Of a stretch of 35,994 nucleotides of DNA, positions 19,173 through 34,555 are shown piece by piece. The notes under the pieces were generated by a model. It saw nothing but the letters and a program-made list of their open reading frames with translations, was not told the origin of the DNA and searched no databases. The number at the start of each line of letters is the position of its first letter. Position 1 is the first letter of the stretch. The DNA comes from an uncultured Ralstonia sp. (lineage in GTDB: Bacteria; Pseudomonadota; Gammaproteobacteria; Burkholderiales; Burkholderiaceae): contig CAJXMR010000031.1 of the NCBI GenBank assembly GCA_913056305.1, forward strand, positions 1 through 35,994, in the 5' to 3' direction. The translations under genes were made by a program, and so were the position numbers.

Positions 19173-19197
19173 CGATGCAACCCAAGTGAGGCAGTCC

Positions 19198-19650: not shown

Positions 19651-21116
19651 ACCTCCCGCAACGCAAGGTCGAGATCCTGCTGGTGGAGGACAGCCTATCC
19701 GATGTATTGCTGGTCGAGGAAGCGCTCTCCGATGTGGCGGACTTCGAGCCCCGGCTGACACATGCCGAACTGTTATCGGCGGCGCTCGCTGAGCTGCAGA
19801 CAAGGCCATGCGATGTGGTGCTGCTCGACCTGGGATTGCCCGACTCGCGAGGGCTGAACACATTCCGGGCATTCCGTCGGCAGGCCCCCGATGTGCCGGT
19901 GCTTGTGTTGACGGGCCTGGACGATCTGTCTGTCGGTCTGAGGGCGATACGCGAGGGTGCGCAGGACTACCTGCTCAAAAAGGAGATCGGGACGTCGCTG
20001 CTCACGCGTGCGATCCGCTATGCGATGGAGCGGCACCGCGTTGCCGCTGCGCTCTCGGCCAGCGAGGAGCGGTTTCAGCTTGCCGTGAGCGGCGCGACCG
20101 CCGGGCTGTGGGATTGGAATCTGCAAACGGGGGCGGTCTATTTCTCGGCCCATTTCAAGAGAATCATGGGCTATGAAGACCACGAACTATCCAACGATGC
20201 GCAGGCGCATCAGGACGCGATTCATCCGGACGACTCCGAGCGGGCCATGAATGCCCTCAAAGCGCATCTGGAGCACGGGAGCGCATACGACGTCGAATAT
20301 CGCGTGCGCACCCGATCCGGCGGCTTCCGATGGATCCAGTCCCGCGGGCAGGCGCTCTGGAGCAGCTCCGGCGAGCCGTACCGCATGGTGGGCTGGATCA
20401 TGGACATCACGGACCGCAAGCGCGACGAGGACGCCTTGCGAATATCGCGCGAGGAGCTGCGACGCCTGTCTACGCACATCCAGCATATCCGAGAGGAGGA
20501 AAAGGCGCGCATCGCACGTGAATTGCACGACGACCTGGGCCAGCAGGTGACGGAGCTGAAGATGGCGGTGATGTTGGTCGAAGAGAAACTGAATGGTGCT
20601 GCGCCACCATCGGCGGCACGCTACTTGCCTGGCGTGTATGCATCGATCGACCAGTTAGTGGATTCGGTGCGACGGATCTCGGCGGACCTGTGTCCTGTCT
20701 TGCTCGATGATCTCGGCCTGATTCCAGCGATTGAGTGGCTGACCAGCGAGTTTTCGGCGCGTTATGGCGTGCGGGTGATCAGCGAGATCGATGCAGATGA
20801 AGTCGCCTTCAATCGGGACAGCCGAATCGATGTGTTTCGCATGATCCAAGAGGCGCTGGCGAATGTTGCACGTCATTCTGGCGCAAGCGAAGTCAAGCTG
20901 AGTATCGTTCGCGATGAGCCGAATTGCATCGTGCGGATCGCTGACAACGGTCGCGGTGCCGTGCTTGACGCACGCCCAGGCCGCAATTCGCTCGGCCTGC
21001 TCGGGCTGCGCGAGCGCGCCGCACGGTTGGCGGGGAACGTGCAGATCAGCACGGCACCCGGTTCGGGCTTCACGTTAGCCGTCACGTTGCCGCTTGCCGC
21101 CGTCGAGGCAACATAG
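19647..21116 (+). CDS. Receiver-PAS-HPK7 hybrid histidine kinase
   Basis: The protein has 489 residues, soluble, with no membrane helix. It has an N-terminal receiver about 7-125, with the acidic pair E14/D15, phosphoacceptor Asp61 in [13 protein letters not shown] and the lysine region YLLKKEI. A PAS fold with a PAC segment follows at about 140-262 ([33 protein letters not shown]). A HisKA_3 dimerisation domain carries its His in [12 protein letters not shown], the HPK7 motif of NarX/DesK/UhpB. The ATPase domain has [15 protein letters not shown] and ADNGRG; the usual G2 box is seen as [14 protein letters not shown]7 kinases normally phosphorylate LuxR/NarL-type regulators; none is encoded in the window, so the final output lies elsewhere. 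It overlaps the previous gene by four bases. Confidence 0.92.
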
Positions 21117-21169: not shown

Positions 21170-22792
21170 TCAGCCCGCCGCGATACGCCGTGCGGCCTGG
21201 TCACCCCACCACGCGGCCTCCTCGAAGACGGAATAGCCGGACAGGTCCGCATGCGCGTAGTGGATCGGTCCTGCGCTCTCGCGCAGGCGCGCAATCGTGG
21301 GGCGTGAGAGAAAGCCCGGCACCGGAATCGCCATGGCGTGTCCACGCAGGGTCAGGTCTGCACGGCGGATCTGCGCGCGCAGGCGGATGCCGTACACGGT
21401 GTCCAGGTCGGCCAGCGCGCGGTCCAGCAGCGCTTGCGGCGGCGCCTTCAGCAGCCATTCGCGTGCGGCCTTCGGGGTCATGTCCGACAGCGCTACGTAG
21501 GCTGTGAACACGCTCTGCGCCGGCGGCCCGACGCGGATGTCCTGGTGATTGGCCACCACGTAACCGAGGCCGGTGCCGCGATAGACCACGTTGTCCCACG
21601 CCAGCGGCGTGTCGTCGTGCTCGGGCGGGAAGCCGTCGATCAGCAGGTTGGCCAGCAGCCACGGTGCGGCCTCGGGCAGTTCGGCGGCGGGCACGTCGAA
21701 GCCTTCGACCACGTGCTTGGCCACGTGCAGCGGCATGGCGCTCACCACATGGTCGGCCAGCAGGCGCACGACGCGGCCATCCGCTTGCAGCACGTCGGCG
21801 AAGACGCGTGCGCCGCCTTCATTGGTGTTGCCGATGCGCGCGGCGCTGCCCGCAAGCAGTCGGCCGGCGTCCTTCAGCCCGGCCGCCTCGAACAGGCGCT
21901 CGGCCATCCAGTCCAGCCCTTCCGGCCATGTCAGCACGGTGCCTTGCTCCGCATTGGCCGCCAGTCCACCACGGCTGGCGAAGTAGGCGAGCCCGGCCCA
22001 GGCGGAGACGTGGTCGGCGGTCGCGCCATAGTCGTCGCGGCAGCAGTAGTCGGCATACCAGTGCAGCGTGGCGGCTTGATAGCCCTCGCGGTGCAGCCAG
22101 TCGCGAAAGGTGAGCGCATCGAGCGCGCGCCAGCTTGGGTCGGCGGAGGCCAGGGCCGTCGGGACGGTGAAGATGCGGCGGCCGTCGGCGCCCGTGGTCT
22201 GGCGCAGGCGGTCGATGTGGGCGAAGAAGCGGACGTGTTCGGCGCGTTCGGCATCGGTGATGCCCTCGTGCGGCACGAAGCCGTCCTGCCAACGGTTGCC
22301 GAGCCACAGGCGTTCGTCGGGGGCGTGGACGAGCACGCGTTCGTCATAGGTCGGGCGCAGGCCAAACGGGTTGCGCTCGATCACGCCGAAGTCGGCCAGC
22401 ATCTCGCGCACGTGGGTCGATTCCATCGACGGCAGCGGCAGGTAGTGCGCGCCGGTCGGGAAACGTTGGGTGCCGAACGCACCGCCTGCGGCGTTGCCGT
22501 AGCGCTCGGGGCCTTCCACCACCACCGCGTCGCGCCGACCGCTCTTGGCGAGTCGCCAGGCGCAGCTCAATCCGCCGATGCCGCTGCCGCAAATGGCGAC
22601 ACCCACGCGCCGCGTCTCCGACGGTGCGGGTAGCGCCTTCAGGTCGCGCAACTGATGGCCCGCTGCCTGCCCAGGTAGGCGCACGTTGGGCGTGATCTCG
22701 GTCAGCGCGCGAAAGCCGGCCCATGATGCGGCGCCGGCTGCCGCCACGCCCGCTGCGGCGGCGCCGATCAGGAAGCTGCGTCGCGTGGTCAT
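21170..22792 (-). CDS. Tat-exported FAD-dependent amine-oxidase-like protein
   Basis: The protein has 540 residues. The N-terminus is a twin-arginine signal (TTRRSFLIGAAAAG), so the folded flavoprotein should be exported or membrane-tethered. The FAD-binding Rossmann motif CGSGIGGLSCAWRLAKSG is at residues 68-85, followed by an Arg/Gly-rich stretch (ERYGNAAGGAF) like the GG doublet motif of amine oxidases and phytoene-desaturase-like enzymes. The C-terminal IHYAHADLSGYSVFEEAAWWG is the second FAD contact region. The substrate is unknown; its place 12 bases after a spermidine-synthase-like gene points to a polyamine. The ATG at 22792 has GAGGTGAG just upstream, overlapping the neighbour's stop. 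The gene is last in a minus-strand run and convergent with the kinase operon. Confidence 0.82.
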   Translation of the reverse strand: MTTRRSFLIGAAAAGVAAAGAASWAGFRALTEITPNVRLPGQAAGHQLRDLKALPAPSETRRVGVAICGSGIGGLSCAWRLAKSGRRDAVVVEGPERYGNAAGGAFGTQRFPTGAHYLPLPSMESTHVREMLADFGVIERNPFGLRPTYDERVLVHAPDERLWLGNRWQDGFVPHEGITDAERAEHVRFFAHIDRLRQTTGADGRRIFTVPTALASADPSWRALDALTFRDWLHREGYQAATLHWYADYCCRDDYGATADHVSAWAGLAYFASRGGLAANAEQGTVLTWPEGLDWMAERLFEAAGLKDAGRLLAGSAARIGNTNEGGARVFADVLQADGRVVRLLADHVVSAMPLHVAKHVVEGFDVPAAELPEAAPWLLANLLIDGFPPEHDDTPLAWDNVVYRGTGLGYVVANHQDIRVGPPAQSVFTAYVALSDMTPKAAREWLLKAPPQALLDRALADLDTVYGIRLRAQIRRADLTLRGHAMAIPVPGFLSRPTIARLRESAGPIHYAHADLSGYSVFEEAAWWGDQAARRIAAG

Positions 22793-22804
22793 GACGTGCT
22801 CACC

Positions 22805-24382
22805 TCAACGCAGCACGCCGTGCCAGTCTTCTTCGAAATACCGCACCAGCGACTGGTTGTTCAGCCGGTTGGGCTCCACCTGCGGACGCGGCATGTCGGG
22901 CGCGAAGCTGAACATCTGGTGCGTGGTGTCGGCATCCAGGAAGCGCGTCGGCACACGGTACGCGGTGGGCGGCTGGAAATCCGCCCGGCCCGGCGCGGCC
23001 AGGATGAAGCCCCATTCGCCAAACGACGGCACCAGCGCGTGATACGGCCACGTGCGGTAGCCGGCCTCCTTCAAGGTCGCATCCACGCACCAGTACGAGC
23101 GTGGCGCGAAGTAGGGCGAGGTGGCCTGGATGACGACGAGACCCGTGTCCGCCACGTGGCGCGACAGCAGCCGATAGAACGGTACCGAATACAGCTTGCC
23201 GATGCTGAAGTTGGACGGGTCCGGAAAATCGACGATGGCCACGTCGAACATGTCCGTGGCGGTCTGCAGCCATTGCCCGGCATCCGCATTGACGATCGTC
23301 ACGCGCGGGTCGCTAAAGGAATGCTGATTGAGCGCAACCAGCGCCTCCGCGTGCGAGAACAGGTTGGTCATGCGCGGGTCCAGGTCGACCAGCGTGACGT
23401 GCTCGATCTGCGGATACTTCAGGATCTGGCGCAGCGCCAGCCCATCGCCGCCGCCCAGCACCAGCACGCGCCGCGCGCCGCGCACGGATTCCAGCGCGGG
23501 CAGCACCAGCGCTTCGTGGTAGCGGTACTCGTCGCGCGAGGAGAACTGCAGGTTGCCGTTGATGTACAGGCGCAGGTCGTCCTTCCAGCGCGTCACCACC
23601 AGCCGCTGGTAGGGCGAGGAGATCGCGTGGATGATCTCGTCGCCAAACAGCGCGCGCTCCGACCAATGCGTAAGCCGGTCCGACGCGCCAAAGCCCGCCA
23701 GCAGCGCCGCCGCCACCGCGCCCGCGCGCCAGGCCATGGCCGTGCGCATGCGCGCCGACAGCGCCAGCTCGGCACGGAAGTGCCACAGCGTCCAGACCGC
23801 AATCGCGGTGTTGAGCAGGCCGAACAGGAAGCCGGTGCGCACCAGCCCCAGGCGCGGCGCCAGCACCAGCGGAAACAGCAGCGAGACGGCCAGCGCGCCC
23901 AGGTAGTCGAACGTCAGCACGCGGCTGACCAGGTCGGAAAACTTGGCCTGCCGGCGATGCAGCATGCGCATGACCAACGGAATCTCCATGCCGACCAGCA
24001 CGCCGATCACCGTCACCAGCGCATACAGCACCAGCCGGAACGGCGCCGATTCCAGCGCAAACAGCACAAATAGCCCTGCGGCCGACACGCCGCCAAACAG
24101 CCCCACCAGCAGCTCCAGATCGACAAAGCGCGCCAGCAGCGCTTCGTCCGCCACGTAGCGCGACAGCCACGAGCCGATGCCCATGGCAAACAGATAGGCG
24201 CCGATGATGGAGGAGAACTGCAGGATCGAATCGCCCAGCAGGTAGGAGGCCAATGCCCCGGCAATCAGCTCATAGGCCAGCCCGCACGAGGCGACCACGA
24301 ACACGGCCAGGACCAGCAGGGCATTGCCACGACCTTGTGGCGAGGAGGAATCGAGAACGGCGTCGGGCTGCGGCGTCGACAT
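22805..24382 (-). CDS. Membrane-bound spermidine-synthase-like aminopropyltransferase
   Basis: The protein has 525 residues. The N-terminal ~210 residues form about six or seven membrane helices (first at VLAVFVVASCGLAYELIAGA). The C-terminal ~290 residues are a spermine/spermidine synthase domain: strand with FSSRDEYRYHEALVLP, nucleotide-binding VLVLGGGDGLALRQIL near residue 308, acidic VDLDPRMTNLF, DAGQWLQ, and catalytic-region IVDFPDPSNFSIGKLYS. Spermidine synthase (SpeE) moves an aminopropyl group from decarboxylated AdoMet to putrescine. Fusion to a membrane domain is typical of long SpeE-like proteins found beside DUF350/SpeD clusters, where the acceptor is unknown. A SpeD-type enzyme that makes the donor is encoded at 32606. 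It forms an operon with the flavoprotein and lies 111 bases after livF on the same strand. Confidence 0.88.
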   Translation of the reverse strand: MSTPQPDAVLDSSSPQGRGNALLVLAVFVVASCGLAYELIAGALASYLLGDSILQFSSIIGAYLFAMGIGSWLSRYVADEALLARFVDLELLVGLFGGVSAAGLFVLFALESAPFRLVLYALVTVIGVLVGMEIPLVMRMLHRRQAKFSDLVSRVLTFDYLGALAVSLLFPLVLAPRLGLVRTGFLFGLLNTAIAVWTLWHFRAELALSARMRTAMAWRAGAVAAALLAGFGASDRLTHWSERALFGDEIIHAISSPYQRLVVTRWKDDLRLYINGNLQFSSRDEYRYHEALVLPALESVRGARRVLVLGGGDGLALRQILKYPQIEHVTLVDLDPRMTNLFSHAEALVALNQHSFSDPRVTIVNADAGQWLQTATDMFDVAIVDFPDPSNFSIGKLYSVPFYRLLSRHVADTGLVVIQATSPYFAPRSYWCVDATLKEAGYRTWPYHALVPSFGEWGFILAAPGRADFQPPTAYRVPTRFLDADTTHQMFSFAPDMPRPQVEPNRLNNQSLVRYFEEDWHGVLR

Positions 24383-24493
24383 GCGAAGGGCGGGAGTCTG
24401 GACGAAGGATGATCGGGCGTTAATACATGCGCCGATGCGGCGAGCGCGATTGTGCCGATTTTTTGCCGAACCGGCGAGCCCAACCGTCCGTGC

Positions 24494-25216
24494 TTATGCC
24501 GCCGCACTCGCCCCCGTCAGCGCAAGCACTCGTCCCTCGTCCGCCGCCAGCTCCCGCGCACTGCCGGAATAAACAATGCCGCCGTCGTCCAGCACATAGG
24601 CGTGGTCGGCAATCTCCAGGCTCATGCGCGCGTTCTGCTCGACCAGCAGGACGGTGATGCCCGCATCGCGCATCTGGGCGACCACGCGAAACACCTCGCG
24701 CACCACCAGCGGTGCCAGCCCTTGCGACGGCTCATCGAGAATCAGCAGGCGCGGGTTGAGCAGCAGCGCGCGGCCCAGTGACAGCATCTCCTGCTCGCCG
24801 CCCGAGAGCGAGCGGCCGCGGCTGAGCTTGCGCTCGGCCAGGCGCGGGAACAGCGCGTAGATGCGGGGGATCGTCCAAGGCCCACTGCGCTCGACCGGCA
24901 CCTTCAGGTTCTCTTCGACCGTCAGATTGGCGAAGATGCGGCGGCCCTCCGGCACGTAGCCGACGCCACTGGCGGCGATGCGGTAAGTCGGCCAGCGCGT
25001 GGTGTCGGCGCCGAACAGAGTCACGCGCCCCTGCCGCGCAGGCGTCAGGCCCATCAGCGTGCGCAGCGTGGTGGTCTTGCCGGCGCCGTTGCGGCCGAGC
25101 AGGACCGTGATGCGGCCCTCGGCGGCCTCCAGGCTCACGCCATGCAGGATGTGGCTCTTGCCGTAGTAGGTGTGCAGCCCCTCGGCGGTCAAGGCGAATT
25201 GCGGCGCCGCGCTCAT
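24494..25216 (-). CDS. livF: Branched-chain-amino-acid-type ABC transporter ATPase, LivF
   Basis: The protein has 240 residues, standard for LivF. Walker A is GRNGAGKTT, Q-loop region VGYVPEGRRIFANLTVEENL (the EGRRIF wording is typical of LivF), signature LSGGEQEML, Walker B LLILDEPSQGLAP, and an H-loop region with LLVEQNA. It hydrolyses ATP on the cytoplasmic face, paired with LivG, to drive uptake of a hydrophobic amino acid or an amide-like compound. Its ATG overlaps the livG stop by four bases (ATGA), so translation is coupled. It is the last gene of the transporter set; the next gene on the strand encodes the spermidine-synthase-like protein, and no terminator is evident between them. 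Confidence 0.95.
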   Translation of the reverse strand: MSAAPQFALTAEGLHTYYGKSHILHGVSLEAAEGRITVLLGRNGAGKTTTLRTLMGLTPARQGRVTLFGADTTRWPTYRIAASGVGYVPEGRRIFANLTVEENLKVPVERSGPWTIPRIYALFPRLAERKLSRGRSLSGGEQEMLSLGRALLLNPRLLILDEPSQGLAPLVVREVFRVVAQMRDAGITVLLVEQNARMSLEIADHAYVLDDGGIVYSGSARELAADEGRVLALTGASAAA

Positions 25217-25962
25217 GACGCACTCCCCAGGTAGGCGGCCTGCACGGCCTCGTTGGCGGCGATCTGCGCCGGCGTGCCCTCGGCCAGCAGCCGCCCCTGG
25301 TCGAGCACGGTGATGCGATCGGCCAGGTCGAACACCACGCGCATGTCGTGCTCGATCAGCACGATGGTGAAGTTGTTCTCCCGGTGCAGGCGGTGGATCA
25401 GCTGCATGGTCTCGTCGGTCTCCTGGTCGCCCATGCCGGCGGTGGGCTCATCGAGCAGCAGCAGACGCGGCCGCAAGGCCAGGGCGATGGCGATCTCGGT
25501 GGCGCGCTGGTCGCCGTGGGCCAGTTCACCGGCCAGGCGGTTGGCCTTGCCGCGCAGGCCGGTGAGGTCGAGCGTCTGCTCCACGTGCTCGTGCACGCGC
25601 GCCTGGTCCGCCGCGCTGATCCACGGCCGCAGGCGAAAGCCTGCTGTTGCTTCCGCGCTGATGCGCACGTTCTCGAACACCGTCAGCTCCGGAAAGATCT
25701 CCGTGATCTGGAAGGTGCGCGCAATGCCCGCCGTTACACGCCGGTGCGCGGCCAGGCCGGTGATGTCGCGGCCTTCAAAGGCGATGGTGCCCGCTGTCGG
25801 CCGGAAGAAGCCGCTGATGAGGTTGAAGAACGTCGTCTTGCCCGCGCCATTCGGGCCGATGACGGCGCGCAGCTCGCCGGGCTCCACCGTCAGGGACACA
25901 TCGTGCACCGCGACCAGGCTGCCGAAGTGCTTGCTGACGTGTTCGACGGTGAGCACGCTCAC
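25213..25962 (-). CDS. livG: Branched-chain-amino-acid-type ABC transporter ATPase, LivG
   Basis: The protein has 249 residues. Walker A is GPNGAGKTT, with FFNLISGFFRPTAG following; Q-loop region GIARTFQITEIFPELTVFEN; Walker B LLLLDEPTAGMG; H-loop LIEHDMRVVFDLAD. The signature is LAHGDQRATEIA, a departure from the usual LSxGxQ with Ala-His where Ser and a small residue are common; LivG proteins do vary here. The GTG at 25962 is chosen because it overlaps the livM stop as GTGA and the protein then starts exactly as LivG does (SVLTVEHVSKHFG); the open frame runs further upstream over livM without a suitable start. Confidence 0.93.
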   Translation of the reverse strand: MSVLTVEHVSKHFGSLVAVHDVSLTVEPGELRAVIGPNGAGKTTFFNLISGFFRPTAGTIAFEGRDITGLAAHRRVTAGIARTFQITEIFPELTVFENVRISAEATAGFRLRPWISAADQARVHEHVEQTLDLTGLRGKANRLAGELAHGDQRATEIAIALALRPRLLLLDEPTAGMGDQETDETMQLIHRLHRENNFTIVLIEHDMRVVFDLADRITVLDQGRLLAEGTPAQIAANEAVQAAYLGSAS

Positions 25963-26918
25963 GATTCGCCCCTGCGCCGAATCACCCCTAGCAAGCCACG
26001 CGGGAAGAACAGCACGATCGCCACGAACAGCATGCCGACGAACGACATCCAGTTGATGGTGATGCTCGACAGGTAGTCCTGCAGCACCACAAACACCACC
26101 GCGCCCAGCAGCGGCCCCCAGAAGCTGCGCATGCCACCCATCACGGCCATCATCACGAAATCGCCCGACTGGCTGTAGTGCAGGCCGCGGGGGTCGGCGA
26201 AGTTGTTCAGCAGCGCGTACAGCGCGCCGGCAAAACCCATGAAGAAGCACGACAGCGTGAAGGCGATCCAGATGTGCCGGTTGACGGGGATGCCGAGAAA
26301 GCGCGCGCGCCGCTCGTTCTCGCGGATGGCGATCATGGTGCGGCCGAACGGAGAGCGCAGGACGAAGGCCATCAACCCGGTCGCCAGCGCCAGGCAGGCC
26401 AGCACGAAGTAATAGAACGCGTTGGCGTTGGAGAGGATGTCGATGGTGGTGAAGCCGAGGTTGAGCGGCGCCCGCGCGAAGCCGCGCAACCCGTCATCAC
26501 CACCGGTGAGCGAACTCCACTGGAACGCGATGTAGTAGAACACCTGCCCGAAGGCGATCGTGACCATGGCGAAGTAGACGCCACGGCGCCGCACGCTCAA
26601 CGCGCCCAGCATCGCCCCGGCGATGCCGCCGAGCAGCGTGCCGCATACCAGCGCCAGCGGCGTACTGGGCGCCAGGAACTTCAGCGCGAAGCCCGCACCG
26701 TAGGCGCCCAGCCCGAAGTACGCCGCATGGCCGAACGACAGCACGCCGGTGAAGCCCAGCAGGAAGTTGACCGACATCGCCGCCAGTCCGAGCACCAGCA
26801 CGCGCGTGCCCAGCGCCGTGTAGCCGCCCAGCGCCGGCATCCAATAGGGCGCGAGCAGCAGCGCCGCCCAGATCGCCAGCGGCCCCAGCAGACGGCGGAG
26901 CGATGCAGGTGCGCTCAT
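25959..26918 (-). CDS. livM: Branched-chain-amino-acid-type ABC transporter permease, LivM
   Basis: The protein has 319 residues with about eight to nine membrane helices. Family-typical stretches: VLSFGHAAYFGLGAYGAGF (the GHAAYFGLGAY segment near the channel), RRRGVYFAMVTIAFGQVFYY, and the coupling-helix region IRENERRARFLGI, which contacts the ATPases. YSQSGDFVMMAVMGGMRSF near the C-terminus is also characteristic. It forms the membrane channel with LivH. The ATG at 26918 overlaps the livH stop by four bases, and its own stop overlaps livG by four, so H-M-G-F are tightly coupled. Confidence 0.95.
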   Translation of the reverse strand: MSAPASLRRLLGPLAIWAALLLAPYWMPALGGYTALGTRVLVLGLAAMSVNFLLGFTGVLSFGHAAYFGLGAYGAGFALKFLAPSTPLALVCGTLLGGIAGAMLGALSVRRRGVYFAMVTIAFGQVFYYIAFQWSSLTGGDDGLRGFARAPLNLGFTTIDILSNANAFYYFVLACLALATGLMAFVLRSPFGRTMIAIRENERRARFLGIPVNRHIWIAFTLSCFFMGFAGALYALLNNFADPRGLHYSQSGDFVMMAVMGGMRSFWGPLLGAVVFVVLQDYLSSITINWMSFVGMLFVAIVLFFPRGLLGVIRRRGES

Positions 26919-27784
26919 GTCAGCATGCCTTCTTCACCCAGCAGCCCGCGCGGGCGCAGCAGCAGCACCAGGGCCATCATCACGTAGATGACCGCCTCGC
27001 TGGCGGCCGGCAGGAACACCGCCGTGATGCCCGACGCCACCCCAATGAGCAGCCCGCCCAGCAGCGTGCCCGTCAGGCTGCCCACCCCGCCGACGATGAT
27101 GGCGATGAAGCTCGGCATCAGCAGCCCGGTGCCCATGGTCGGCTCCAGCCCGAGCTGCCCGGCCGCCAGCACGCCGGAGAGGCCCGCCAGGAAGATGCCA
27201 ACCGCAAAGTTGAGTGAGCGCAACCGCCCCACGTTGATGCCGAGCGCTGCCACGGTCTCCAGGTCCAGTGTGCCGGCGCGGATGCGGATGCCCATGCGCG
27301 TGTAGCGCAGCAGCAGGAAGAGCGCCGCCACCGTCACCGCCACCGTGCCGACCATGAACAGCCGGTAGCCGGTGATGAAGAAGAACTCGCTGGAGAGCGG
27401 TTGCGCCAGCGCCTCGGGAATCGTCACCGGCTTGCCCTGTGCGCCCCAGATGAAGCGCGTGCCGTCTTCAAACACGAACGCCAGGCCGAAGGTCAGCAGC
27501 AGGCTGTAGAGCGGGTCACGCCCGTACACGCGGCGGATCAGCAAGCGCTCCAGCACCAGCCCGAGCAGCGCGGCAATCGGCGGCGCGATCAGCAGCGCGC
27601 CCCAGAAGCCGACGTACGGTGTAATCGTGTACGCGATATAGCCGCCGATCACGAGAAACCCGCCGTGCGCGAAGTTGATGACGTTGCTCAGGTTGAGGAT
27701 GAGCGACAGCCCGAGCGCCATCAGCACGTAGAACGCGCCGATGATCAGCCCGTTGGTGATGTTGAAGAGCAGCAGTTGCGTCAT
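26915..27784 (-). CDS. livH: Branched-chain-amino-acid-type ABC transporter permease, LivH
   Basis: The protein has 289 residues with about eight membrane helices. Signature stretches: NGLIIGAFYVLMALGLSLIL, NVINFAHGGFLVIGGYI (the NFAHG segment), the coupling region RYTRMGIRIRAGTLDLETVAALGINVG, and GGVGSLTGTLLGGLLIGV near the end. It is the permease partner of LivM in the inner membrane. The gene follows the binding-protein gene after 50 bases. The ATG at 27784 starts directly at the amphipathic leader and first helix, as in homologues. Confidence 0.95.
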   Translation of the reverse strand: MTQLLLFNITNGLIIGAFYVLMALGLSLILNLSNVINFAHGGFLVIGGYIAYTITPYVGFWGALLIAPPIAALLGLVLERLLIRRVYGRDPLYSLLLTFGLAFVFEDGTRFIWGAQGKPVTIPEALAQPLSSEFFFITGYRLFMVGTVAVTVAALFLLLRYTRMGIRIRAGTLDLETVAALGINVGRLRSLNFAVGIFLAGLSGVLAAGQLGLEPTMGTGLLMPSFIAIIVGGVGSLTGTLLGGLLIGVASGITAVFLPAASEAVIYVMMALVLLLRPRGLLGEEGMLT

Positions 27785-27834
27785 GGCCCCCGACGCGTCC
27801 TGGTGCGCGCTATGTGCGGTGGTTGGCGGCTACG

Positions 27835-29094
27835 TCAGGCCGGCCACTTGATGCTGCAGCCGGTCGCACTCTCGGGCGGCGCGGTCTTGTCGCCGGGCAC
27901 GATGTTGTCGACGCGGAACAGGTCTTCCGGGTCGCCCGCCGGCTTGCTCAGCGCCTCGCCCACGAAGGCTGACGTCATCAGCTGATGGTCGCCCTTGCGG
28001 TAGTAGCACTTGTTGGGCTGCAGCTTCACGTCGTCGGGCAGCTCGAAGCCGCCGAGCGCCTCGGCGAGCTTTCTCGAATCGAGCGTCTTCTCTCGGTTGG
28101 CGATCCCGGCCAGCGTGTGCACCGAGGTGTAGCCGAACCAGTGGCGCGCGGTCGGCACCTTGCCGTTGTTGACCTTGCGGATGTCGGCGACGAACTTCTC
28201 CACGTGCGGCACACCCGGCTGCTTCCAGTACCACTCGAACATCCACACGCCGACGCGCGCCTCGGGCGGCATCGCCTCCAGCGATTCCAGCTCCTGCTGC
28301 AGCCCGGCGATGTGGATCTGCTTGCCGATGCCAAACTGCGCGATCTGCTTGAGGCAGTTGACCATGTCCGAGCCCTGCGGCAGCACCAGCAGTACGTCGG
28401 GGTTGGCCGCGCGCGCCTTGATCAGGAAGGACGAGAAGTCGGTGGTGCCCAGCGGTGTCAGCTCATTGCCGGTGATGGTGCCGCCCAGCTTCTGCAGGTC
28501 GGCCGCCGCCGCCTTCTGCAGCGTGTGGCCGAAGGCGTAGTCCGGCGTGATGAAGTGCCACTTCTTGCCGTACTTGGTGAACAGCAGGTTGGCCACGGCG
28601 TTGGCCTCCATGCTGGTGGTGTTGCACACGCGGTAGACGTTCCACTTGCAGTCGCTGCCGGTGATGGTGTCGGTGTGTCCGCCCGACACGATGTGCAGCA
28701 CGCGCTTCTCGTTGCTGACCTGGGAGATGGCCTGCGCGATGCCGGAGTTCACGTCGCCGATCAGGAAGTTCACCTGGTCGCGCTCGATCAGCTTGCGCGC
28801 CTTCTGCACGCCGGTGCCGACGTCGTTGGCGGAGTCCTCCACCAGCAGTTCGATCGGCCGGCCGAGGATGCCCCCGCGGGCGTTGATCTGTGCCACGGCA
28901 AGCTTGGCGCCCGTGACCTCGTTCTGGGCCACGGCAGCGTAGACGCCCGTCAGCGGGTCGACCATGCCGATGCGGATGGGGGTGTCGCCGCGCGCCTTGA
29001 GGATGAAGGGCGGTGCCAGCTGCACCGCCGCCGCCGCAACGGCGGTTTTCAGGATGGTGCGACGATCAACGTGGATGCAATTCGGTGTCGTCAT
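27835..29094 (-). CDS. ABC transporter substrate-binding protein (LivK/AmiC type)
   Basis: The protein has 419 residues, longer than LivK (~370). The N-terminus (DRRTILKTAVAAAAVQLAPP) has twin arginines and an Ala-rich core, so export may be by Tat. The mature part is a type I periplasmic binding protein: IRIGMVDPLTGVYAAVAQNE, AQINARGGILGRPIELLVED, the hinge region VNFLIGDVNSG, and DFSSFLIKARAANPDVLLVL. The sequence is closer in style to the amide/urea-type subgroup than to classical LivK, so the ligand need not be a branched-chain amino acid. Given its place between polyamine-related genes, an amine- or amide-containing ligand is worth considering; this is inference. It is the first gene of the transporter operon. 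Confidence 0.88.
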   Translation of the reverse strand: MTTPNCIHVDRRTILKTAVAAAAVQLAPPFILKARGDTPIRIGMVDPLTGVYAAVAQNEVTGAKLAVAQINARGGILGRPIELLVEDSANDVGTGVQKARKLIERDQVNFLIGDVNSGIAQAISQVSNEKRVLHIVSGGHTDTITGSDCKWNVYRVCNTTSMEANAVANLLFTKYGKKWHFITPDYAFGHTLQKAAAADLQKLGGTITGNELTPLGTTDFSSFLIKARAANPDVLLVLPQGSDMVNCLKQIAQFGIGKQIHIAGLQQELESLEAMPPEARVGVWMFEWYWKQPGVPHVEKFVADIRKVNNGKVPTARHWFGYTSVHTLAGIANREKTLDSRKLAEALGGFELPDDVKLQPNKCYYRKGDHQLMTSAFVGEALSKPAGDPEDLFRVDNIVPGDKTAPPESATGCSIKWPA

Positions 29095-29137
29095 GGCTGC
29101 CCCCTGACTGTCGTGTCGAATCGGCCAATCGCCTGAG

Positions 29138-29157
29138 CCTCGCGCGCATGCGCGAGG
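29138..29157 (-). promoter_or_regulatory. Leader hairpin upstream of the binding-protein gene
   Basis: CCTCGCGC (29138-29145) pairs perfectly with GCGCGAGG (29150-29157) around the loop GCAT. It lies about 43-63 bases upstream of the ATG at 29094, inside the predicted leader. It has no T-run, so it may influence mRNA stability or translation rather than terminate. Confidence 0.4.
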
Positions 29158-29173
29158 GGTCTCCTATCAATCA

Positions 29174-29202
29174 ACTTTAGGTGTGCGGACTGAGTTGCAC
29201 AA
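29174..29202 (-). promoter_or_regulatory. Weak candidate promoter of the transporter operon
   Basis: On the minus strand TTGTGC (29202-29197) and TAAAGT (29179-29174) are 17 bases apart. Three of six and four of six positions match the sigma-70 consensus, so support is modest. The position, about 80 bases before the start, is suitable. Confidence 0.3.
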
Positions 29203-29380
29203 GGAGGGGCAACCGGCGAGAACGGTTGATGGGCAAGGGTTTCTACGGGGTGTGGGTGGCGTGGCGAAGGCGGGTACGCCGCCGTCATGTACCGGCAACG
29301 GCACGCGGCTTGATTAAGGGGTGATAACAAACGCCAGGCAGGGCAGCCGGCGGGGGGTACGCAAGCGTCACGCGGCCCGC

Positions 29381-29395
29381 TATAGTGGCGCCACT
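29381..29395 (+). promoter_or_regulatory. -10-like hexamer overlapped by a perfect palindrome before DUF350
   Basis: TATAGT at 29381-29386 resembles a sigma-70 -10 element. AGTGGCGCCACT at 29384-29395 is a perfect 12-base palindrome that overlaps it and would cover the transcript start. No good -35 hexamer is visible, which fits an activated promoter. The DUF350 start codon is 35 bases further on. Confidence 0.4.
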
Positions 29396-29430
29396 TGCGG
29401 CCAGATGCCGCCTCCGGAGCCCTCAGCCTC

Positions 29431-29820
29431 ATGATCGCCCCCATCATTGCCTATGCAACGCACCTGCTGGCCGGCGCCATCGTTTTCGCCGGCTTTTTCT
29501 TCGTGTACCTCAAGCTGACGCCGTACGATGAGTTCAAGCTGATCCGCGAGGGCAACGTGTCCGCGGCGCTGTCGCTGGCGGGAGCACTGCTGGGCTTCGT
29601 GTTCACCATCGCATCCAGCATCCAGCACAGCGATGGCCTGATGCCGTTCCTGTTCTGGGCGGTGATGGCCTCGGTGGTGCAGCTGATTGTGTTCCTGGTG
29701 CTCACGCGCCTGATGCCGGATTACCGGCTGCAGATCGAGCACAACAACACGGCAGCCGGTGGCCTGTTTGGCGTGAGTGCACTGGCGGTCGGCATCATCA
29801 ACGCCGCCTGCCTGTCCTAA
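29431..29820 (+). CDS. DUF350 membrane protein (YjfL-like)
   Basis: The protein has 129 residues and four predicted membrane helices (about 5-24, 44-66, 73-93 and 107-127). The motif FFVYLKLTPYDEFKLIREGN and the following SAALSLAGALLGFVFTIASSI match DUF350, where an Asn/Glu-bearing loop lies between helices one and two. It is an integral inner-membrane protein without known activity, found in E. coli as YjfL beside a PspA paralogue and a glutathionylspermidine-synthase-like protein. Here it opens a five-gene operon with an SPFH protein, DUF4178, a tiny Gly-rich peptide and SpeD. The ATG at 29431 is preferred to an upstream ATG at 29404 because GGAG at 29415-29418 serves it and homologues begin at the helix. 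Confidence 0.85.
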   Translation: MIAPIIAYATHLLAGAIVFAGFFFVYLKLTPYDEFKLIREGNVSAALSLAGALLGFVFTIASSIQHSDGLMPFLFWAVMASVVQLIVFLVLTRLMPDYRLQIEHNNTAAGGLFGVSALAVGIINAACLS

Positions 29821-29861
29821 TTTTTGTCCTGCCTCGCATAACCATCACGAAGGAGTTTCCC

Positions 29862-30899
29862 GTGAGCCTGTCCGATTTCATCAGAAAGCAGTTTCTCGAC
29901 ATCCTGCAGTGGACCGAGGGTGAGGACGGCGTCTTGGCCTGGCGCTACCCGATGCAGGACATGGAAATCCGCTACGGCAGCAGCCTGACCGTGCGCGACT
30001 CGCAGATGGCGATGTTCGTCAACGAGGGCCAGATCGCCGACGTGTTCCGCGCCGGCATGTACAAGCTGACCACGCAGACGCTGCCGGTGCTGACCTACCT
30101 GAAGAACTGGGACAAGCTGTTCGAGTCCCCCTTCAAGTCCGACGTCTACTTCTTCAGCACGCGCCAGCAGCTCGGCCGCCGCTGGGGCACGCCGCAGCCG
30201 GTGACGGTGCGCGACAAGGATTTCGGCATGGTCCGCCTGCGCGCCTTTGGCGTGTATGCCTACCACGTGGCCGATCCGAAGCAGTTCTACCAGCAGGTGA
30301 GCGGCACGCGCGATGCCTATACCGCTGAAGAAGTCGAGCAGCAGCTCGGCCCCGTCATCATGGGCGCGATGGCCACGGCGTTTGGCGAATCCGGCGTGCC
30401 GTTCCTGGACCTGGCCGCTAACCAGACGCTGATCTCGACCAAGGTGCGCGAGGTGCTGGCACCGCAGTTCACGCAGTACGGCCTGGCGCTCGATAGCTTC
30501 CAGGTATCGAGCATCACGCTGCCCGACGAGCTGCAGGCTGCAATGGACCGCCGCATCAGCATGGACATGACCGGCGACATGGGGCGCTTCACGCAATACC
30601 AGACCGCCGAATCGCTGCCGCTGGCGGCGCAGAACCCGGGCGGTATCGCCGGCACGGGTGCGGGGCTGGCAGCAGGCTTGGCGATGGGGCAGGTGATGGC
30701 CGAGAGCATGCGCACGGCGGTGCAGGGCGGCGGCGCTGCTGCACAGCCGGCTGCGCAAGCCCCGGCAGCCCCGGCTGCCGACGACCCGACCGCGCGTCTG
30801 GCCAAGCTCAAGGAGCTGCTCGACAAGGGTCTGATCACCCAGGCCGATTTCGATGCCGGCAAGGCCGCCGTGCTCAAGGCGCTGACCGGCGGCGTTTGA
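29862..30899 (+). CDS. SPFH-domain protein with C-terminal SHOCT motif (YdjI-like)
   Basis: The protein has 345 residues. The main part is an SPFH/band-7-like domain of the 'virion core protein' or YdjI type: KQFLDILQWTEGEDGVLAWR near the start, VRDSQMAMFVNEGQIADVF, DVYFFSTRQQLGRRWGTPQP and LDSFQVSSITLPDEL. An Ala/Pro/Gln-rich linker follows (about 270-305). A SHOCT-like helical hairpin ends the protein (ARLAKLKELLDKGLITQADFD, about 307-343), a short module that promotes oligomer formation. SPFH proteins organise membrane patches or scaffolds. There is no N-terminal membrane helix, so it is cytoplasmic and probably membrane-associated through partners such as DUF350. The GTG at 29862 is supported by AAGGAG at 29850-29855. 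Confidence 0.85.
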   Translation: MSLSDFIRKQFLDILQWTEGEDGVLAWRYPMQDMEIRYGSSLTVRDSQMAMFVNEGQIADVFRAGMYKLTTQTLPVLTYLKNWDKLFESPFKSDVYFFSTRQQLGRRWGTPQPVTVRDKDFGMVRLRAFGVYAYHVADPKQFYQQVSGTRDAYTAEEVEQQLGPVIMGAMATAFGESGVPFLDLAANQTLISTKVREVLAPQFTQYGLALDSFQVSSITLPDELQAAMDRRISMDMTGDMGRFTQYQTAESLPLAAQNPGGIAGTGAGLAAGLAMGQVMAESMRTAVQGGGAAAQPAAQAPAAPAADDPTARLAKLKELLDKGLITQADFDAGKAAVLKALTGGV

Positions 30900-30975
30900 G
30901 CGCAGCCCATCGCATCGTCCTGCGGGGCAGCCTGGATGGCTGCCCTGCCTTTCTGCGTCATCCAACACCCTGACC

Positions 30976-32427
30976 ATGTTTCATGCCAACTGCCCGGCGT
31001 GCGGCGCGCCGGTGGAACTGAAGTCTGCCGCCGCCGTGATGGCGGTGTGCAGCTTCTGCAAGAGCACGCTGCTACGCGACGGCGAGACGCTGCAGGACAT
31101 CGGCAAGATGTCCGCCGTGCTCGAAGACTACGCACGCGTGCAGATCGGCACGACTGGGCGCTACAAGGGCCGCGGCTTTACCGTGGTCGGCCGCATCCAG
31201 TTGCGCTACGACGCCGGTTTCTGGAACGAGTGGTACGTGCTGTTCGACGACGCCACCGACGGCTGGCTGGCCGAGGCCTCCGGCCAGGTCACGATGACCT
31301 TCGCGCGTGGCACGCCGGCCGATGCCGTTGCCTTTGAATCGCTGCGGCCCGGCCAGTCCTACAACGCCGATGGCAAGGTCTTCGTGCTCTCCGACGTGCG
31401 CGAGGCCGATTGCACCGGCGGCCAGGGCGAGCTGCCGTTCCGCGTAGGCGAGGGCTGGCATGCGCGCGTGGCCGACGGCCGCAGCAAGGACGCCTTCCTC
31501 ACGCTCGACTATTCCGACGGCACTGCGCCCACGCTGTACCTGGGCGAAGCGACCACGCTCAAATCGCTCAATTGCCAGTTGCTGCGCTCGGATCAGGAGA
31601 TCCAGGACAGCGCCGGCACCTTGCCGGGCAAACTGGTCAACCTGGACTGCCCGTCGTGTGGCGCTGGCATCCCGTTCGGGCCGGGCGCCACCGCGCACCT
31701 GCTGTGCCCATCGTGTGGCACCACCATCGATGCGTCGACGCCGCGCGCGGAGATCGTCGAGCGCGCGCGTTCGGTGCCGCAGGTCGAGACCACGCTGGAG
31801 CTGGGCGCCAAGGCGCTGATCGATGGCGTGCAGTGGCAGATCATCGGCGTGATGCGCCGTACCGTGGTCAACGACGCGGGCGAGTGGTTCGAATACCTGC
31901 TGTATAGCCCTAAGCGCGGCTTCCTCTGGCTGGTCGAGACCGATGAGGGCTGGTCACGCGCCAGCGTGCTCGACCGCTGGCCGGAGACGGTCGACGCGGG
32001 TGGCGCCGTGCTCGAAGGCAAGCGCTACAACCGCAGCGACGACTACAGCGCGCGGGTGACCTACGCCGCCGGCGCCTTCAACTGGCGCGTCAAGAGCGGC
32101 GACGTGACCCGCGTGATCGAATATGGCGCCAGCGTCAACGGCCTGGCCGCGGAGAGCGACGCGCACGAGCTGAACTGGTCCAGGAGTTCGCCGGTCTCCA
32201 CCGCGCAGATGAAGGCGTGGTTCGGCAAAGTGGTGGAGGAACCCGCGCGCAAGCCGGAAGCCAGCGGCTACATGTCGGTGGCGATCGTCGCCTGCGTGCT
32301 GCTGGGCCTGTTCGGACTGGTACCGTTCTTCATGGCGCCGGGCTCGGTGTTCGGCATCTCCTTCATCGCCGCGCTGCTGTTGCTGCTGCCGGCCTGGTTG
32401 ATGGGGCTGGTGGGAGGCGCGGAATGA
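30976..32427 (+). CDS. DUF4178 protein with two zinc ribbons and C-terminal membrane helices
   Basis: The protein has 483 residues. The N-terminal zinc ribbon has C6/C9 and C25/C28. A first beta-rich DUF4178 domain follows (about 50-215; YKGRGFTVVGRIQLRYDAGF, WNEWYVLFDD). A second zinc ribbon has C225/C228 and C244/C247, and a second DUF4178 copy runs about 270-415 (DGVQWQIIGVMRRTV, WFEYLLYSPKRGFLWLVE). Two membrane helices lie at about 433-478, so the soluble part hangs from the membrane. The protein is thus an internal duplication of a ribbon-plus-DUF4178 unit. The function is unknown; DUF4178 genes recur beside spermidine-synthase-like, SpeD-like and DUF350 genes. The stop overlaps the next start by four bases (ATGA). 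Confidence 0.85.
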   Translation: MFHANCPACGAPVELKSAAAVMAVCSFCKSTLLRDGETLQDIGKMSAVLEDYARVQIGTTGRYKGRGFTVVGRIQLRYDAGFWNEWYVLFDDATDGWLAEASGQVTMTFARGTPADAVAFESLRPGQSYNADGKVFVLSDVREADCTGGQGELPFRVGEGWHARVADGRSKDAFLTLDYSDGTAPTLYLGEATTLKSLNCQLLRSDQEIQDSAGTLPGKLVNLDCPSCGAGIPFGPGATAHLLCPSCGTTIDASTPRAEIVERARSVPQVETTLELGAKALIDGVQWQIIGVMRRTVVNDAGEWFEYLLYSPKRGFLWLVETDEGWSRASVLDRWPETVDAGGAVLEGKRYNRSDDYSARVTYAAGAFNWRVKSGDVTRVIEYGASVNGLAAESDAHELNWSRSSPVSTAQMKAWFGKVVEEPARKPEASGYMSVAIVACVLLGLFGLVPFFMAPGSVFGISFIAALLLLLPAWLMGLVGGAE

Positions 32428-32609
32428 AGCGTTTTTTCGTGATGTATGCCGTGGGTGTCGTCATCGGCGCCACGTACATGAACTGGAAGGCCGGTTTTGC
32501 CGCACCGCGCACGCCGTCATATGGCAGCAGCACGGGTGGGTCGTCGTACTGGGGCGGCTCGTCGGGCGGCAGCGGTTACGGCGGTGGCTTCAGCGGGGGC
32601 CATAAGTGA
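32424..32609 (+). CDS. Tiny Gly/Ser/Tyr-rich membrane-anchored peptide
   Basis: The protein has 61 residues. An N-terminal hydrophobic helix (RFFVMYAVGVVIGATYM, about 3-20) is followed by a low-complexity tail of Gly, Ser and Tyr (SSYWGGSSGGSGYGGGFSGG) ending in HK. I do not recognise a family. Its reality is supported by position: its start overlaps the DUF4178 stop (ATGA) and its stop overlaps the SpeD start (GTGA), so it is locked in a translationally coupled chain. It probably sits in the inner membrane with a flexible tail; orientation is uncertain. It may be a scaffold or contact peptide for the SPFH/DUF4178 assembly, which is inference only. Confidence 0.75.
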   Translation: MKRFFVMYAVGVVIGATYMNWKAGFAAPRTPSYGSSTGGSSYWGGSSGGSGYGGGFSGGHK

Positions 32610-33037
32610 CGCGTGTGGACGTTGCGCCCACTACGGCCGACACTGGCGGGCCTGCGGTGGGTGAACACCTGCTGCTGGACCTCTACGGCGTGGCCCCTGC
32701 GCTCCTGCGCGATGCGCGCTTGCTGGAAGCCGCCTTGCGCGAGGCGGCCGACGCCCTGGGCGCCACCATCCTCCACTGCCATCTGCATCGCTTCGGCACA
32801 TTGCACACTGGCGACCCATCTGGCGACCCGTCGGACACCGGCGGCGTGACCGGCGTGCTGCTGCTGGCCGAATCGCACCTGTCCATCCACACCTGGCCCG
32901 AGCACAGGTTTGCCGCCATCGATGCCTTCATGTGCGGCACCGGCACGACACACGCCGCGCGTGCCGTGTTCGAACGGGCCCTGGCGCCCGCACGCGTCGA
33001 CGTGCGCATCGCACAGCGCGGCGGCACAGCGGGTTAG
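32606..33037 (+). CDS. speD: S-adenosylmethionine decarboxylase, SpeD/SpeH type
   Basis: The protein has 143 residues, near the usual size of class 1B AdoMet decarboxylases. It makes decarboxylated AdoMet, the aminopropyl donor for polyamine synthesis. The self-cleavage and active site is intact: ESHLSIHTWPE with E89|S90 (Ser90 becomes the pyruvoyl group), His95, and Cys110 in FMCGTG. The spacing of these three residues equals that of the Thermotoga enzyme (S63, H68, C83). The N-terminal GEHLLLDLYG is also conserved. A Gly/Asp/Thr-rich insertion lies ahead of the active-site strand (TGDPSGDPSDTGG). The GTG start overlaps the previous stop. Its natural partner would be the membrane SpeE-like protein encoded 8 kb away at 22805-24382. 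Confidence 0.92.
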   Translation: MTRVDVAPTTADTGGPAVGEHLLLDLYGVAPALLRDARLLEAALREAADALGATILHCHLHRFGTLHTGDPSGDPSDTGGVTGVLLLAESHLSIHTWPEHRFAAIDAFMCGTGTTHAARAVFERALAPARVDVRIAQRGGTAG

Positions 33038-33265: not shown

Positions 33266-34555
33266 ATGACCACGCTGCCCACGCACGTCCCGCCTTCCGT
33301 ACTCCCCACGCCTTCCATCGCTACGCCAGCCTTGCCGGACTGGATTCTCGCCCGCATGCGGGGCCATTTCGACGAGCGCATGGCCAAGCTCTGGGGCGGC
33401 GATCATCTGCTGCACGGCCGCTCACCCGGCCCCGGCGCCTTGTTCCTGAACAGCAACGACTATCTGTGCCTGCTCGGCGAGCGCGCGCTGGTGCGTGCGC
33501 AGGCGCGCGCGCTGCTGGGGCATGAGCACGAGCTGCTCATGTCGGCGGTGTTCCAGCATGGCGATACGGCGCAGAGCCGGGTCGAGGCCCGTCTGGCGAA
33601 GTTGATGCGGGCCGAGGCCGGCTTGATCGCGCAGTCCGGCTGGGCAGCCAATGTGGGGTTGATCCAGTGCATTGCCGGGCCGGGCGTGCCGGTCTATATC
33701 GACATGAGCGCGCATGCCTCGCTGTGGGAGGGCATCACCGCGGCCGGCGCGCAGGCGGTGCCGTTCCGGCACAACGACGTCGACCACCTGTGCCGGCAGC
33801 TGGAGCGCACGGGGCCGGGGATCATCGTGGTGGATTCGGTCTACAGCACGACCGGCAGTGTGGCGCCCTTGCCGGCGCTGGTGGTGGCCGCAGAATCGAA
33901 CGGGTCGGGCATCGTCGTGGACGAATCCCACTCGCTGGGCACGCATGGGCCCGGCGGGGCCGGACTGGTGGTGCAGCTGGGCCTGGAGCGGCGGGTGCAT
34001 TTCCGCACCGCGTCGCTGGCCAAGACATTTGCCGGCCGCGCGGGGGTTGTCGCCTGCAGCGGTCAGTTCAAGGATTTCTTTGCCGTGGAGGCGCGCCCGG
34101 CCATTTTCAGCTCGGGGCTGTTGCAGCATGAACTGGCCTGGTTCGCGGCCGCAGCCGATTTCATTGCCGCCGCCGACGACCGCCGCGAGCGCCTGCACGC
34201 GACCACCCGTGCAGTGCGCGCAGGCATTGCCGCGCTGGGCTACAACATCGGCGACGGCACGGAGCAGATCATTGGGCTGGAAGCCGGCTCGGAGCCCCAG
34301 GTCAAGGTGTTGCGCGACGCATTGCAGGCCCGTGGCGTGTTTGGCGCGGTATTCTGTGCGCCGGCCACGCCCAGGAATCGGGCGTTGATGCGCCTGACGC
34401 TGCATGCCAAACTCTCCGCCGCAGATATCGAGCGTTTGCTTGGCACGTTGGCCGATATCCGTGACCAGGTGGGGCTGGATGACTGGCCGTCCACGCGCAG
34501 GATGCGGCGCGCCGCAGCAGCTGTTCAACTCAATGCATGTTTGGCGAATTCATGA
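33266..34555 (+). CDS. cqsA: Alpha-hydroxyketone autoinducer synthase (CqsA/LqsA/JqsA family)
   Basis: The protein has 429 residues and is a PLP-dependent acyl-transferase of the alpha-oxoamine-synthase fold. Many stretches match Vibrio cholerae CqsA as I know it: NSNDYLCL, QSGWAANVGL, YIDMSAHASLWEG, GPGIIVVDSVYSTTG, VDESHSLGTHGPGGAGL, TASLAKTFAGRAG with the PLP lysine K253, PAIFSSGLL, QIIGLEAG and GVFGAVFCAPAT. These go beyond generic 8-amino-7-oxononanoate synthases (BioF). Family enzymes condense an acyl-CoA with an amino-acid-derived or AdoMet-derived donor to give CAI-1/LAI-1-like signals. The N-terminus is longer than CqsA by a Pro-rich segment. GACGAGG at 33254-33260 serves the ATG. 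It is co-translated with the sensor kinase that follows. The symbol could equally be lqsA or jqsA. Confidence 0.9.
   Translation: MTTLPTHVPPSVLPTPSIATPALPDWILARMRGHFDERMAKLWGGDHLLHGRSPGPGALFLNSNDYLCLLGERALVRAQARALLGHEHELLMSAVFQHGDTAQSRVEARLAKLMRAEAGLIAQSGWAANVGLIQCIAGPGVPVYIDMSAHASLWEGITAAGAQAVPFRHNDVDHLCRQLERTGPGIIVVDSVYSTTGSVAPLPALVVAAESNGSGIVVDESHSLGTHGPGGAGLVVQLGLERRVHFRTASLAKTFAGRAGVVACSGQFKDFFAVEARPAIFSSGLLQHELAWFAAAADFIAAADDRRERLHATTRAVRAGIAALGYNIGDGTEQIIGLEAGSEPQVKVLRDALQARGVFGAVFCAPATPRNRALMRLTLHAKLSAADIERLLGTLADIRDQVGLDDWPSTRRMRRAAAAVQLNACLANS

Follow-up and report, generated by a model that had tools for sequence, protein, structure and literature searches.

The 35,994-nt stretch of DNA from an uncultured Ralstonia sp. 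analysed here (contig CAJXMR010000031.1, positions 1 to 35,994, hereafter the window), which belongs to a 5.47 Mb assembly (411 contigs, 88% complete), carries seven genes that form one unit, into which a liv-type ATP-binding cassette (ABC) transporter block has been inserted. The unit comprises a SpeD-type S-adenosylmethionine (AdoMet) decarboxylase, a membrane protein fused to a spermidine-synthase domain (the SpeE-fusion), a flavoenzyme, DUF350, SPFH and DUF4178 proteins, and a small peptide ending in His-Lys. We propose, at a rough probability of 0.47, that the lysine at the C-terminus of this peptide is the acceptor of the SpeE-fusion, with SpeD supplying the donor and the flavoenzyme oxidising the product. 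The terminal lysine was proposed because it is kept across variants that share the fusion, is usually the only lysine of the tail, and has a side chain equivalent to the putrescine part of spermidine. Direct observations are the unit itself, its interruption by the insertion, the coupling of the genes at genome level, the conservation of His-Lys at the end of the peptide and the retention of the catalytic residues.

All seven genes and the five of the transporter are present at the positions given by an earlier, sequence-only reading of this DNA. On the minus strand lie the core gene for a flavin adenine dinucleotide (FAD) amine-oxidase-like protein (21170-22792; 540 residues; Pfam Amino_oxidase and NAD_binding_8), starting MTTRRSFL with a signal of the twin-arginine translocation (Tat) type, and the gene for the SpeE-fusion (22805-24382; 525 residues; Pfam and NCBIfam), with seven hydrophobic segments and a C-terminal spermidine-synthase domain. 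The plus strand carries a DUF350 membrane protein (29431-29820; Pfam DUF350, 117 bits), whose open reading frame (ORF) runs from 29395 and for which comparison with relatives favoured the ATG at 29431; an SPFH/Band_7_1 protein with a SHOCT tail (29862-30899; Pfam Band_7_1, 252.6 bits, and SHOCT, 29.9 bits); and a Pfam-assigned DUF4178 protein (30976-32427) with two DUF4178 stretches, two Cys4 ribbons of invariant cysteines and a C-terminal hydrophobic region. These are followed by the 61-residue, one-helix, Gly/Ser-rich peptide with a Gly-His-Lys end (32424-32609), the proposed aminopropyl acceptor, whose final His-Lys codons are CAT AAG (32601-32606), and by SpeD, a predicted class 1b AdoMet decarboxylase (32606-33037). 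Two 4-nt overlaps link the reading frames, one between DUF4178 and the peptide and one between the peptide and SpeD, so that translational coupling of the three genes is probable. No Rfam family scored above threshold in the window.

The sequence-only reading had held that the two halves would be unrelated neighbours if they did not co-occur across genomes or if the SpeE-like protein lacked aminopropyltransferase residues. In a sample of 250 genomes of the order, searched at E <= 1e-60 for the SpeE-fusion and E <= 1e-40 for the FAD gene, the fusion was present in 42 and DUF4178 in exactly those 42. The flavoenzyme was also found in 42 genomes, 41 of them in common with the fusion, and the two mismatches (G159 and G195) are both fragmented assemblies of one genus. 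Because of this genome-level co-occurrence the grouping was judged not to be due to chance; the hypergeometric log10 of about -48 ignores kinship and is a guide only. Outside the genus, 41 SpeE neighbourhoods were surveyed, and DUF4178 lay close by in 35 of them, DUF350 in 35, the FAD gene in 34, SPFH in 24 and SpeD in 24. A survey anchored on the flavoenzyme kept 80 loci, and the 54 with full flanks contained SpeE (n = 49), DUF4178 (n = 50), SPFH (n = 48), DUF350 (n = 47) and SpeD (n = 46); at least 577 relatives of the flavoenzyme were confirmed in one genome scan.

Within the genus, 16 genomes were compared, 14 of which, including that of the window, carried the fusion locus. One SpeD was found in each of these 14 genomes and none in the other two, and the assembly of the window has just one SpeD (one PF02675 match) and one Spermine_synth protein, which suggests that SpeD works mainly for the SpeE-fusion. 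Two matches of the ornithine/arginine/diaminopimelate-decarboxylase type were also present in this assembly. SpeD scored 107.3 bits against NCBIfam TIGR03330 (cut-off 75.65) and aligned over its full length with the solved AdoMet decarboxylase 1tlu, through the ESHLxIHTWPE block and the Cys region, in agreement with the complete active site noted earlier. Excerpts of PMC10407285 describe neofunctionalised SpeD proteins of the ornithine or arginine decarboxylase type; the window protein may alternatively belong to these.

Two sets of candidate peptides were assembled by rules that took no account of the last residues. The first held 76 peptides lying between DUF4178 and SpeD, picked by Gly+Ser content, all of which (76/76) ended in His-Lys; the second held 112 small ORFs, selected for their size, their position and the presence of a hydrophobic stretch. 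Among the 116 loci with DUF4178 followed by 350 nt or more of sequence, a number that includes near-identical genus copies and two contigs counted twice (L086/L102 and L093/L103), a His-Lys end was present in 115, comprising 107 separate small ORFs, seven fusions to the C-terminus of DUF4178 and one peptide displaced by 1.6 kb (L035). Eight DUF4178 ORFs end in His-Lys; locus L097 holds one fused and one separate tail. As background, 62 of 1430 long ORFs from the same loci (4.3%) ended in Lys and seven, largely the DUF4178 fusions, in His-Lys. Acidic Gly-rich DUF4178 tails (..GGGD) were seen instead of or besides the peptide in L033, L132, L138, L068 and L159.

Once nine genus copies had been dropped, 98 His-Lys peptides remained, 97 of them distinct. 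Residue -3 was Gly in 52% of the distinct peptides and positions further inward drifted; the tail had no other Lys in 79/97, a Lys or Arg stood within the first six residues in 83/97, and a lipobox-like Cys was present in 14/97. The codons of the last two residues varied (CAC or CAT for His, AAA or AAG for Lys), as did the stop codon, and synonymous changes exceeded nonsynonymous ones in all 12 genus copies found, indicating that the constraint acts on the protein and that the peptide is under purifying selection. The 61-residue peptide had no NCBIfam match and its ORF no Pfam match; eight database relatives were found, one of them named, as a hypothetical protein, and the gene, of about 50-60 codons, bears that label in both places where a source names it. 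No description of a Lys-ended peptide was found in the literature searched, mostly at abstract level, and Li et al. (2019) may mention one. The Gly-rich peptide of the sequence-only reading, taken so far as one piece of the platform, becomes the best acceptor candidate by virtue of its conserved C-terminal His-Lys.

More distant clusters separated the lysine from the histidine. With the flavoenzyme present, the His-Lys end recurred on three Novosphingobium plasmids (L182, L184 and L207) and in two genomes of another class (L189 and L194), in a fused tail in L197, and as IYHK in a Vampirovibrio metagenome-assembled genome (L179). A terminal Lys was found in 13 of 15 SpeE loci without a FAD gene in the locus, ending in RIK or RVK (L192, L193 and L201), GGK (L185-L188 and L204), SGK (L200, L190 and L202), RGK (L195) or, in a fused tail, AHK (L196); absence of the FAD gene was verified genome-wide for 10 of these FAD-less genomes. 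Across these variants Lys is what stays the same, and His mostly accompanies the flavoenzyme; L196 and Gemmatirosa (L183) are exceptions that contradict a strict tie of His to the flavoenzyme. Starts resembling those of lipoproteins were seen in L195 and L202, and L185 is of the PspA-CesT operon type of Ravi 2024. An Alteromonas plasmid (L202, 9.6-14.6 kb) carries an annotated toxic anion resistance protein near DUF4178 and DUF350, L190 being similar by eye, and both loci carry a large protein ending in ..SGK.

The SpeE-fusion matched NCBIfam NF002956/PRK03612 with 705 bits (cut-off 472) and Pfam Spermine_synth with 112.6 bits, and fell below the cut-off of the soluble spermidine synthase SpeE family TIGR00417 (112.3 vs 249.55 bits). 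In an alignment of 36 of the 55 sequences collected, Y288, H289, D313, D385, D388, T421 and F454 were invariant, D313 being the Asp of GGGDG and D385 and D388 the gatekeeper Asp pair. The aminopropyltransferase residues on which the sequence-only reading had depended (Y288, H289, D313, D385 and D388) are therefore retained, those for catalysis as well as those for binding decarboxylated AdoMet (dcAdoMet). In the divergent set most motifs were kept (L200 has GAGDG, L195 has YHS, and L203 is partial). Excerpts of PMC4356361 describe contacts of the Plasmodium falciparum spermidine synthase (PfSpdS) with its substrates: Tyr102, His103, Asp127 and Asp196 touch the amine under attack or the aminopropyl group, and Asp199 touches putrescine at its distal amine; residues of PfSpdS and the window were matched by a reading of motifs. 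The acidic residue of GxG(D/E)G is described in parts of PMC10349129 as needed for dcAdoMet binding and as separating dcAdoMet users from a seven-transmembrane (7TM) histidine methyltransferase. Relative to Bacillus subtilis SpeE, two acceptor-side positions are changed: Thr421 of the window replaces the Asp in QTDNPW (the divergent set has Thr, Gly or Ala here), and VPSF-G stands in place of IPTYPSG. The acidic residue of the B. subtilis motif has a role towards putrescine. The two changes would fit, rather than establish, an altered acceptor. A role in anti-phage defence was set aside: PADLOC matched the transferase domain to mad2 with 56.5 bits and gave two weak matches besides, all read as generic.

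Across the 36 aligned fusion proteins, the mean number of Lys and Arg residues was 10.1 in the parts predicted to be cytosolic (N-terminus and loops 2, 4 and 6) vs 1.9 in loops 1, 3 and 5, and loops 2, 4 and 6 were the richer in all 22 proteins of the divergent set that have a membrane part, 18 of them new. This charge bias predicts that the N-terminus lies inside and the transferase domain outside, provided that all seven segments, including segment 7, cross the membrane. For the FAD protein, whose closest named relative is from Ralstonia mannitolilytica (92%), the twin Arg was present in all 34 aligned sequences (of 49 collected; L068 and L071 were left out, as the picked starts lay behind the signal) and, by pattern only, in 124/124 loci with the anchor motif (5 skipped). 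A lipobox-like Cys was found, again by pattern, in 58 of these 124 loci. The cysteines of both Cys4 ribbons were invariant in the DUF4178 alignment (35 of 54 collected), and in the PDB the DUF4178 profile matched only ribbon-type proteins; SPFH matched no PDB sequence at E 0.01.

Taken as a pathway, SpeD would make dcAdoMet and the membrane SpeE-fusion would move its aminopropyl group onto the C-terminal lysine of the peptide, whose side chain, -(CH2)4-NH2, mimics putrescine and would become spermidine-like after the transfer. The tail of the peptide would lie outside the cytoplasm together with the two enzyme parts that act on it, the transferase domain and the flavoenzyme, a placement predicted from patterns and charge only. 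The donor would then cross the membrane by way of the SpeE membrane domain or DUF350, or the peptide would be modified before its export. DUF4178, presumably cytosolic by its Cys ribbons, and SPFH would hold the peptide at the membrane, and the flavoenzyme would likely oxidise the product, cleaving or cross-linking the aminopropyl-lysine and so resetting or fixing the mark. In its fullest form, put forward tentatively and with clearly less confidence than the acceptor assignment itself, the proposal is that a ribosomally synthesised, membrane-anchored peptide receives a periplasmic N-epsilon-(3-aminopropyl)lysine at its last residue, which the Tat-exported flavoenzyme removes or cross-links. 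Deoxyhypusine on a lysine of eIF5A and the lysine polyamines of silaffins are protein lysine side chains extended with a polyamine piece; their enzymes and substrates are others, and here a C-terminal lysine and a dcAdoMet donor are proposed.

Several findings weigh against this assignment. With SpeD taken as cytosolic, dcAdoMet would somehow have to be carried to an active site outside. Of the seven helices, that of segment 7 is the weakest (Goldman-Engelman-Steitz value, GES, 1.26), and if it does not cross, the transferase domain is cytosolic. The second gatekeeper Asp, counterpart of Asp199 in PfSpdS, is kept in the fusion, so that small diamines may be acceptors. A second Spermine_synth match (30-39 bits, above the Pfam cut-off) occurs in six genus genomes, that of the window not among them, and these may have another dcAdoMet user. 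On the side of the peptide, L033, the one exception among the 116 DUF4178 loci, lacks a peptide of this kind in its surroundings, and the FAD-less loci L203, with its partial SpeE, and L205 yielded no tail ending in Lys. The large proteins of L190, L195 and L202 were missed by the first filter and chosen by eye on later, looser looks. Gemmatirosa has the flavoenzyme and ends in HGK, and L196 ends in AHK in a genome without the FAD gene. The flavoenzyme profile, finally, matched 161 PDB sequences, with 2b9w best (43 bits) and Pseudomonas aeruginosa SpdH (7d9f-j) a weak second (40.6 bits, in three stretches, of which only that of the FAD motif was significant); other amine oxidases scored alike. 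The family therefore appears to resemble amine oxidases in general and is probably too distant to be assigned to SpdH.

The strongest competing explanation, which we consider rather unlikely, is that the fusion places its aminopropyl group on a small amine or on the head group of a membrane lipid, and that the Lys-ended peptide is a structural subunit whose charged end touches lipid or partner proteins. The catalytic pocket of the fusion is largely of the polyamine-aminopropyltransferase type, the best PDB scores being those of the Thermus thermophilus enzymes, 7xif and ACL5, and parts of Ravi 2024 (PMC11237479) propose polyamine monitoring or the aminopropylation of other substrates, with polyamines linked to membrane stability. 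A structural role, however, does not account for why only the last residue or residues are fixed, or why Lys outlasts both His and changes in the tail, nor does it explain the fusion of the tail to DUF4178; the Thr421 in place of the acidic QTDNPW residue also speaks against it.

An improbable variant keeps the modification of lysine by SpeE as the ancestral step and adds the flavoenzyme as a second step. It would recognise its substrate by the His and oxidise the aminopropyl-lysine to an aldehyde, through which the peptide becomes cross-linked either to a component of the envelope or to another copy of itself. The Tat-type signal of the flavoenzyme, its frequent lipobox-like Cys and its coupling to SpeE are consistent with this, and SpdH-type enzymes yield an aminoaldehyde and diaminopropane from spermidine, SpdH cutting beside the inner nitrogen, according to excerpts of PMC7576179. 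The likeness to SpdH is weak, however, and L196 and Gemmatirosa violate the rule that joins His to the flavoenzyme.

That the His-Lys tail instead binds metal or relays electrons or protons for the flavoenzyme, the aminopropyltransferase having another target, is quite improbable. It would agree with the finding that nearly all flavoenzyme-containing clusters examined end in His-Lys and not just in Lys. Gly-His-Lys is a copper-binding peptide, the copper binding of which needs a free N-terminus, and it was rejected as a general explanation, the residue before His being Gly in only about half of the peptides; moreover, the clusters that are free of the flavoenzyme retain Lys, mostly without His.

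Clusters of this kind have been noted before. Li et al. (Biochem J, 2019) reportedly described clusters of an AdoMet decarboxylase, a membrane-spermidine synthase fusion and DUF350, in which the fusions do not replace spermidine synthase, and are said to have left the aminopropylation target open. Passages of Ravi 2024 (PMC11237479) describe PspA-CesT/Tir operons with a 7TM-spermidine synthase fusion, DUF350 and DUF4178, and suggest the aminopropylation of other substrates with the target left open. The window resembles both in its clustering of a membrane domain-spermidine synthase fusion with SpeD, DUF350 and DUF4178, and differs in having SPFH-SHOCT in the place of PspA/CesT, a core flavoenzyme with a Tat signal, and the His-Lys peptide; a neighbouring ATP-grasp variant has a polyamine oxidase and a band-7/SHOCT protein, according to the same passages (PMC11237479). 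The PspA-CesT/Tir dyad (group 2 of Ravi 2024) was absent from the window proteins scanned and present in the relative L185.

A further likeness, by domain description, and a precedent for the proposal, is that to the fungal N-terminal histidine methyltransferase (NHMT), which also joins a seven-helix membrane domain to a spermidine-synthase-like domain and, as excerpts of PMC10349129 report, is located in the endoplasmic reticulum and adds a methyl group to an N-terminal His on proteins bound for secretion, and so acts on a terminal residue of exported proteins. NHMT is a methyltransferase with Ile at the acidic dcAdoMet position, where the window fusion has Asp (GGGDG), and its 7TM domain is reported in those excerpts from filamentous fungi only (PMC10349129). 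SpeD-spermidine synthase fusion clusters are widespread. If the terminal lysine is the acceptor, it would answer what the polyamine-independent systems, PspA-linked ones included, aminopropylate, and would represent a new protein modification at the cell envelope using dcAdoMet and a possible membrane-stress output common to PspA systems; as a concrete candidate, the conserved C-terminal Lys can be checked cheaply by mass spectrometry.

The transporter block (24481-29350, edges approximate), with livF, G, M, H and K on the minus strand (24494-29094), separates the two halves of the unit only in the window and L083 among the 14 genus loci. In the other 12 (L084-L095) speE and DUF350 are divergent neighbours without liv, and the complete run to SpeD was seen in 11 of these, L084 stopping inside SPFH. 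Two parts of the window, one ending near 24480 and the other starting near 29351, aligned to a single continuous intergenic region of the 12 liv-free relatives. Its speE-side portion lies at 24383-24480 (edge approximate, alignments stopping at 24464-24480) and its DUF350-side portion at 29351-29430 (alignments beginning at 29338-29351), where the four sequences inspected have a TATAGT block. The absence of liv from 12/14 genus loci and this continuous alignment therefore indicate that the cluster was once contiguous and that the transporter entered it later, as the sequence-only reading had allowed; the insert measures about 4.87 kb and is shared by the window and L083, at 86.8% across 5.3 kb.

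The other suggestion of that reading, that the transporter is a member of the system and brings in the acceptor, draws on its position between the halves, on the strand of speE, in the window and L083, and is extremely improbable, and refuted as a general feature, given its absence from the other 12 genus loci and from between the halves in wider neighbourhoods: livH, M and K gave nothing above 25 bits in the SpeE loci outside the genus, and a livG-like ATPase, present in 24/80 flavoenzyme loci, lay between the halves in none. In the window and in L083 (about 7.2-12.0 kb), livKHMGF share the strand of speE and the FAD gene and read toward them; the insertion may have rewired their transcription.

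Just 3' of SpeD lies an autoinducer synthase gene for alpha-hydroxyketone-type quorum sensing (NF005526/PRK07179, 568.9 bits, cut-off 428), overlapped by the gene of a membrane histidine kinase, the pair spanning 33266-35850. It was rejected as a member of the unit, as it occurred in only 4/14 genus loci (the window, L083, L085 and L093; the contig of L084 ends early). Beside the end of the FAD gene, a response regulator is flanked by two PAS-containing sensor kinases (16908-21116), and further away the window carries a HipA_C-domain protein (8042-9388) and a UPF0182 protein (3205-5961).

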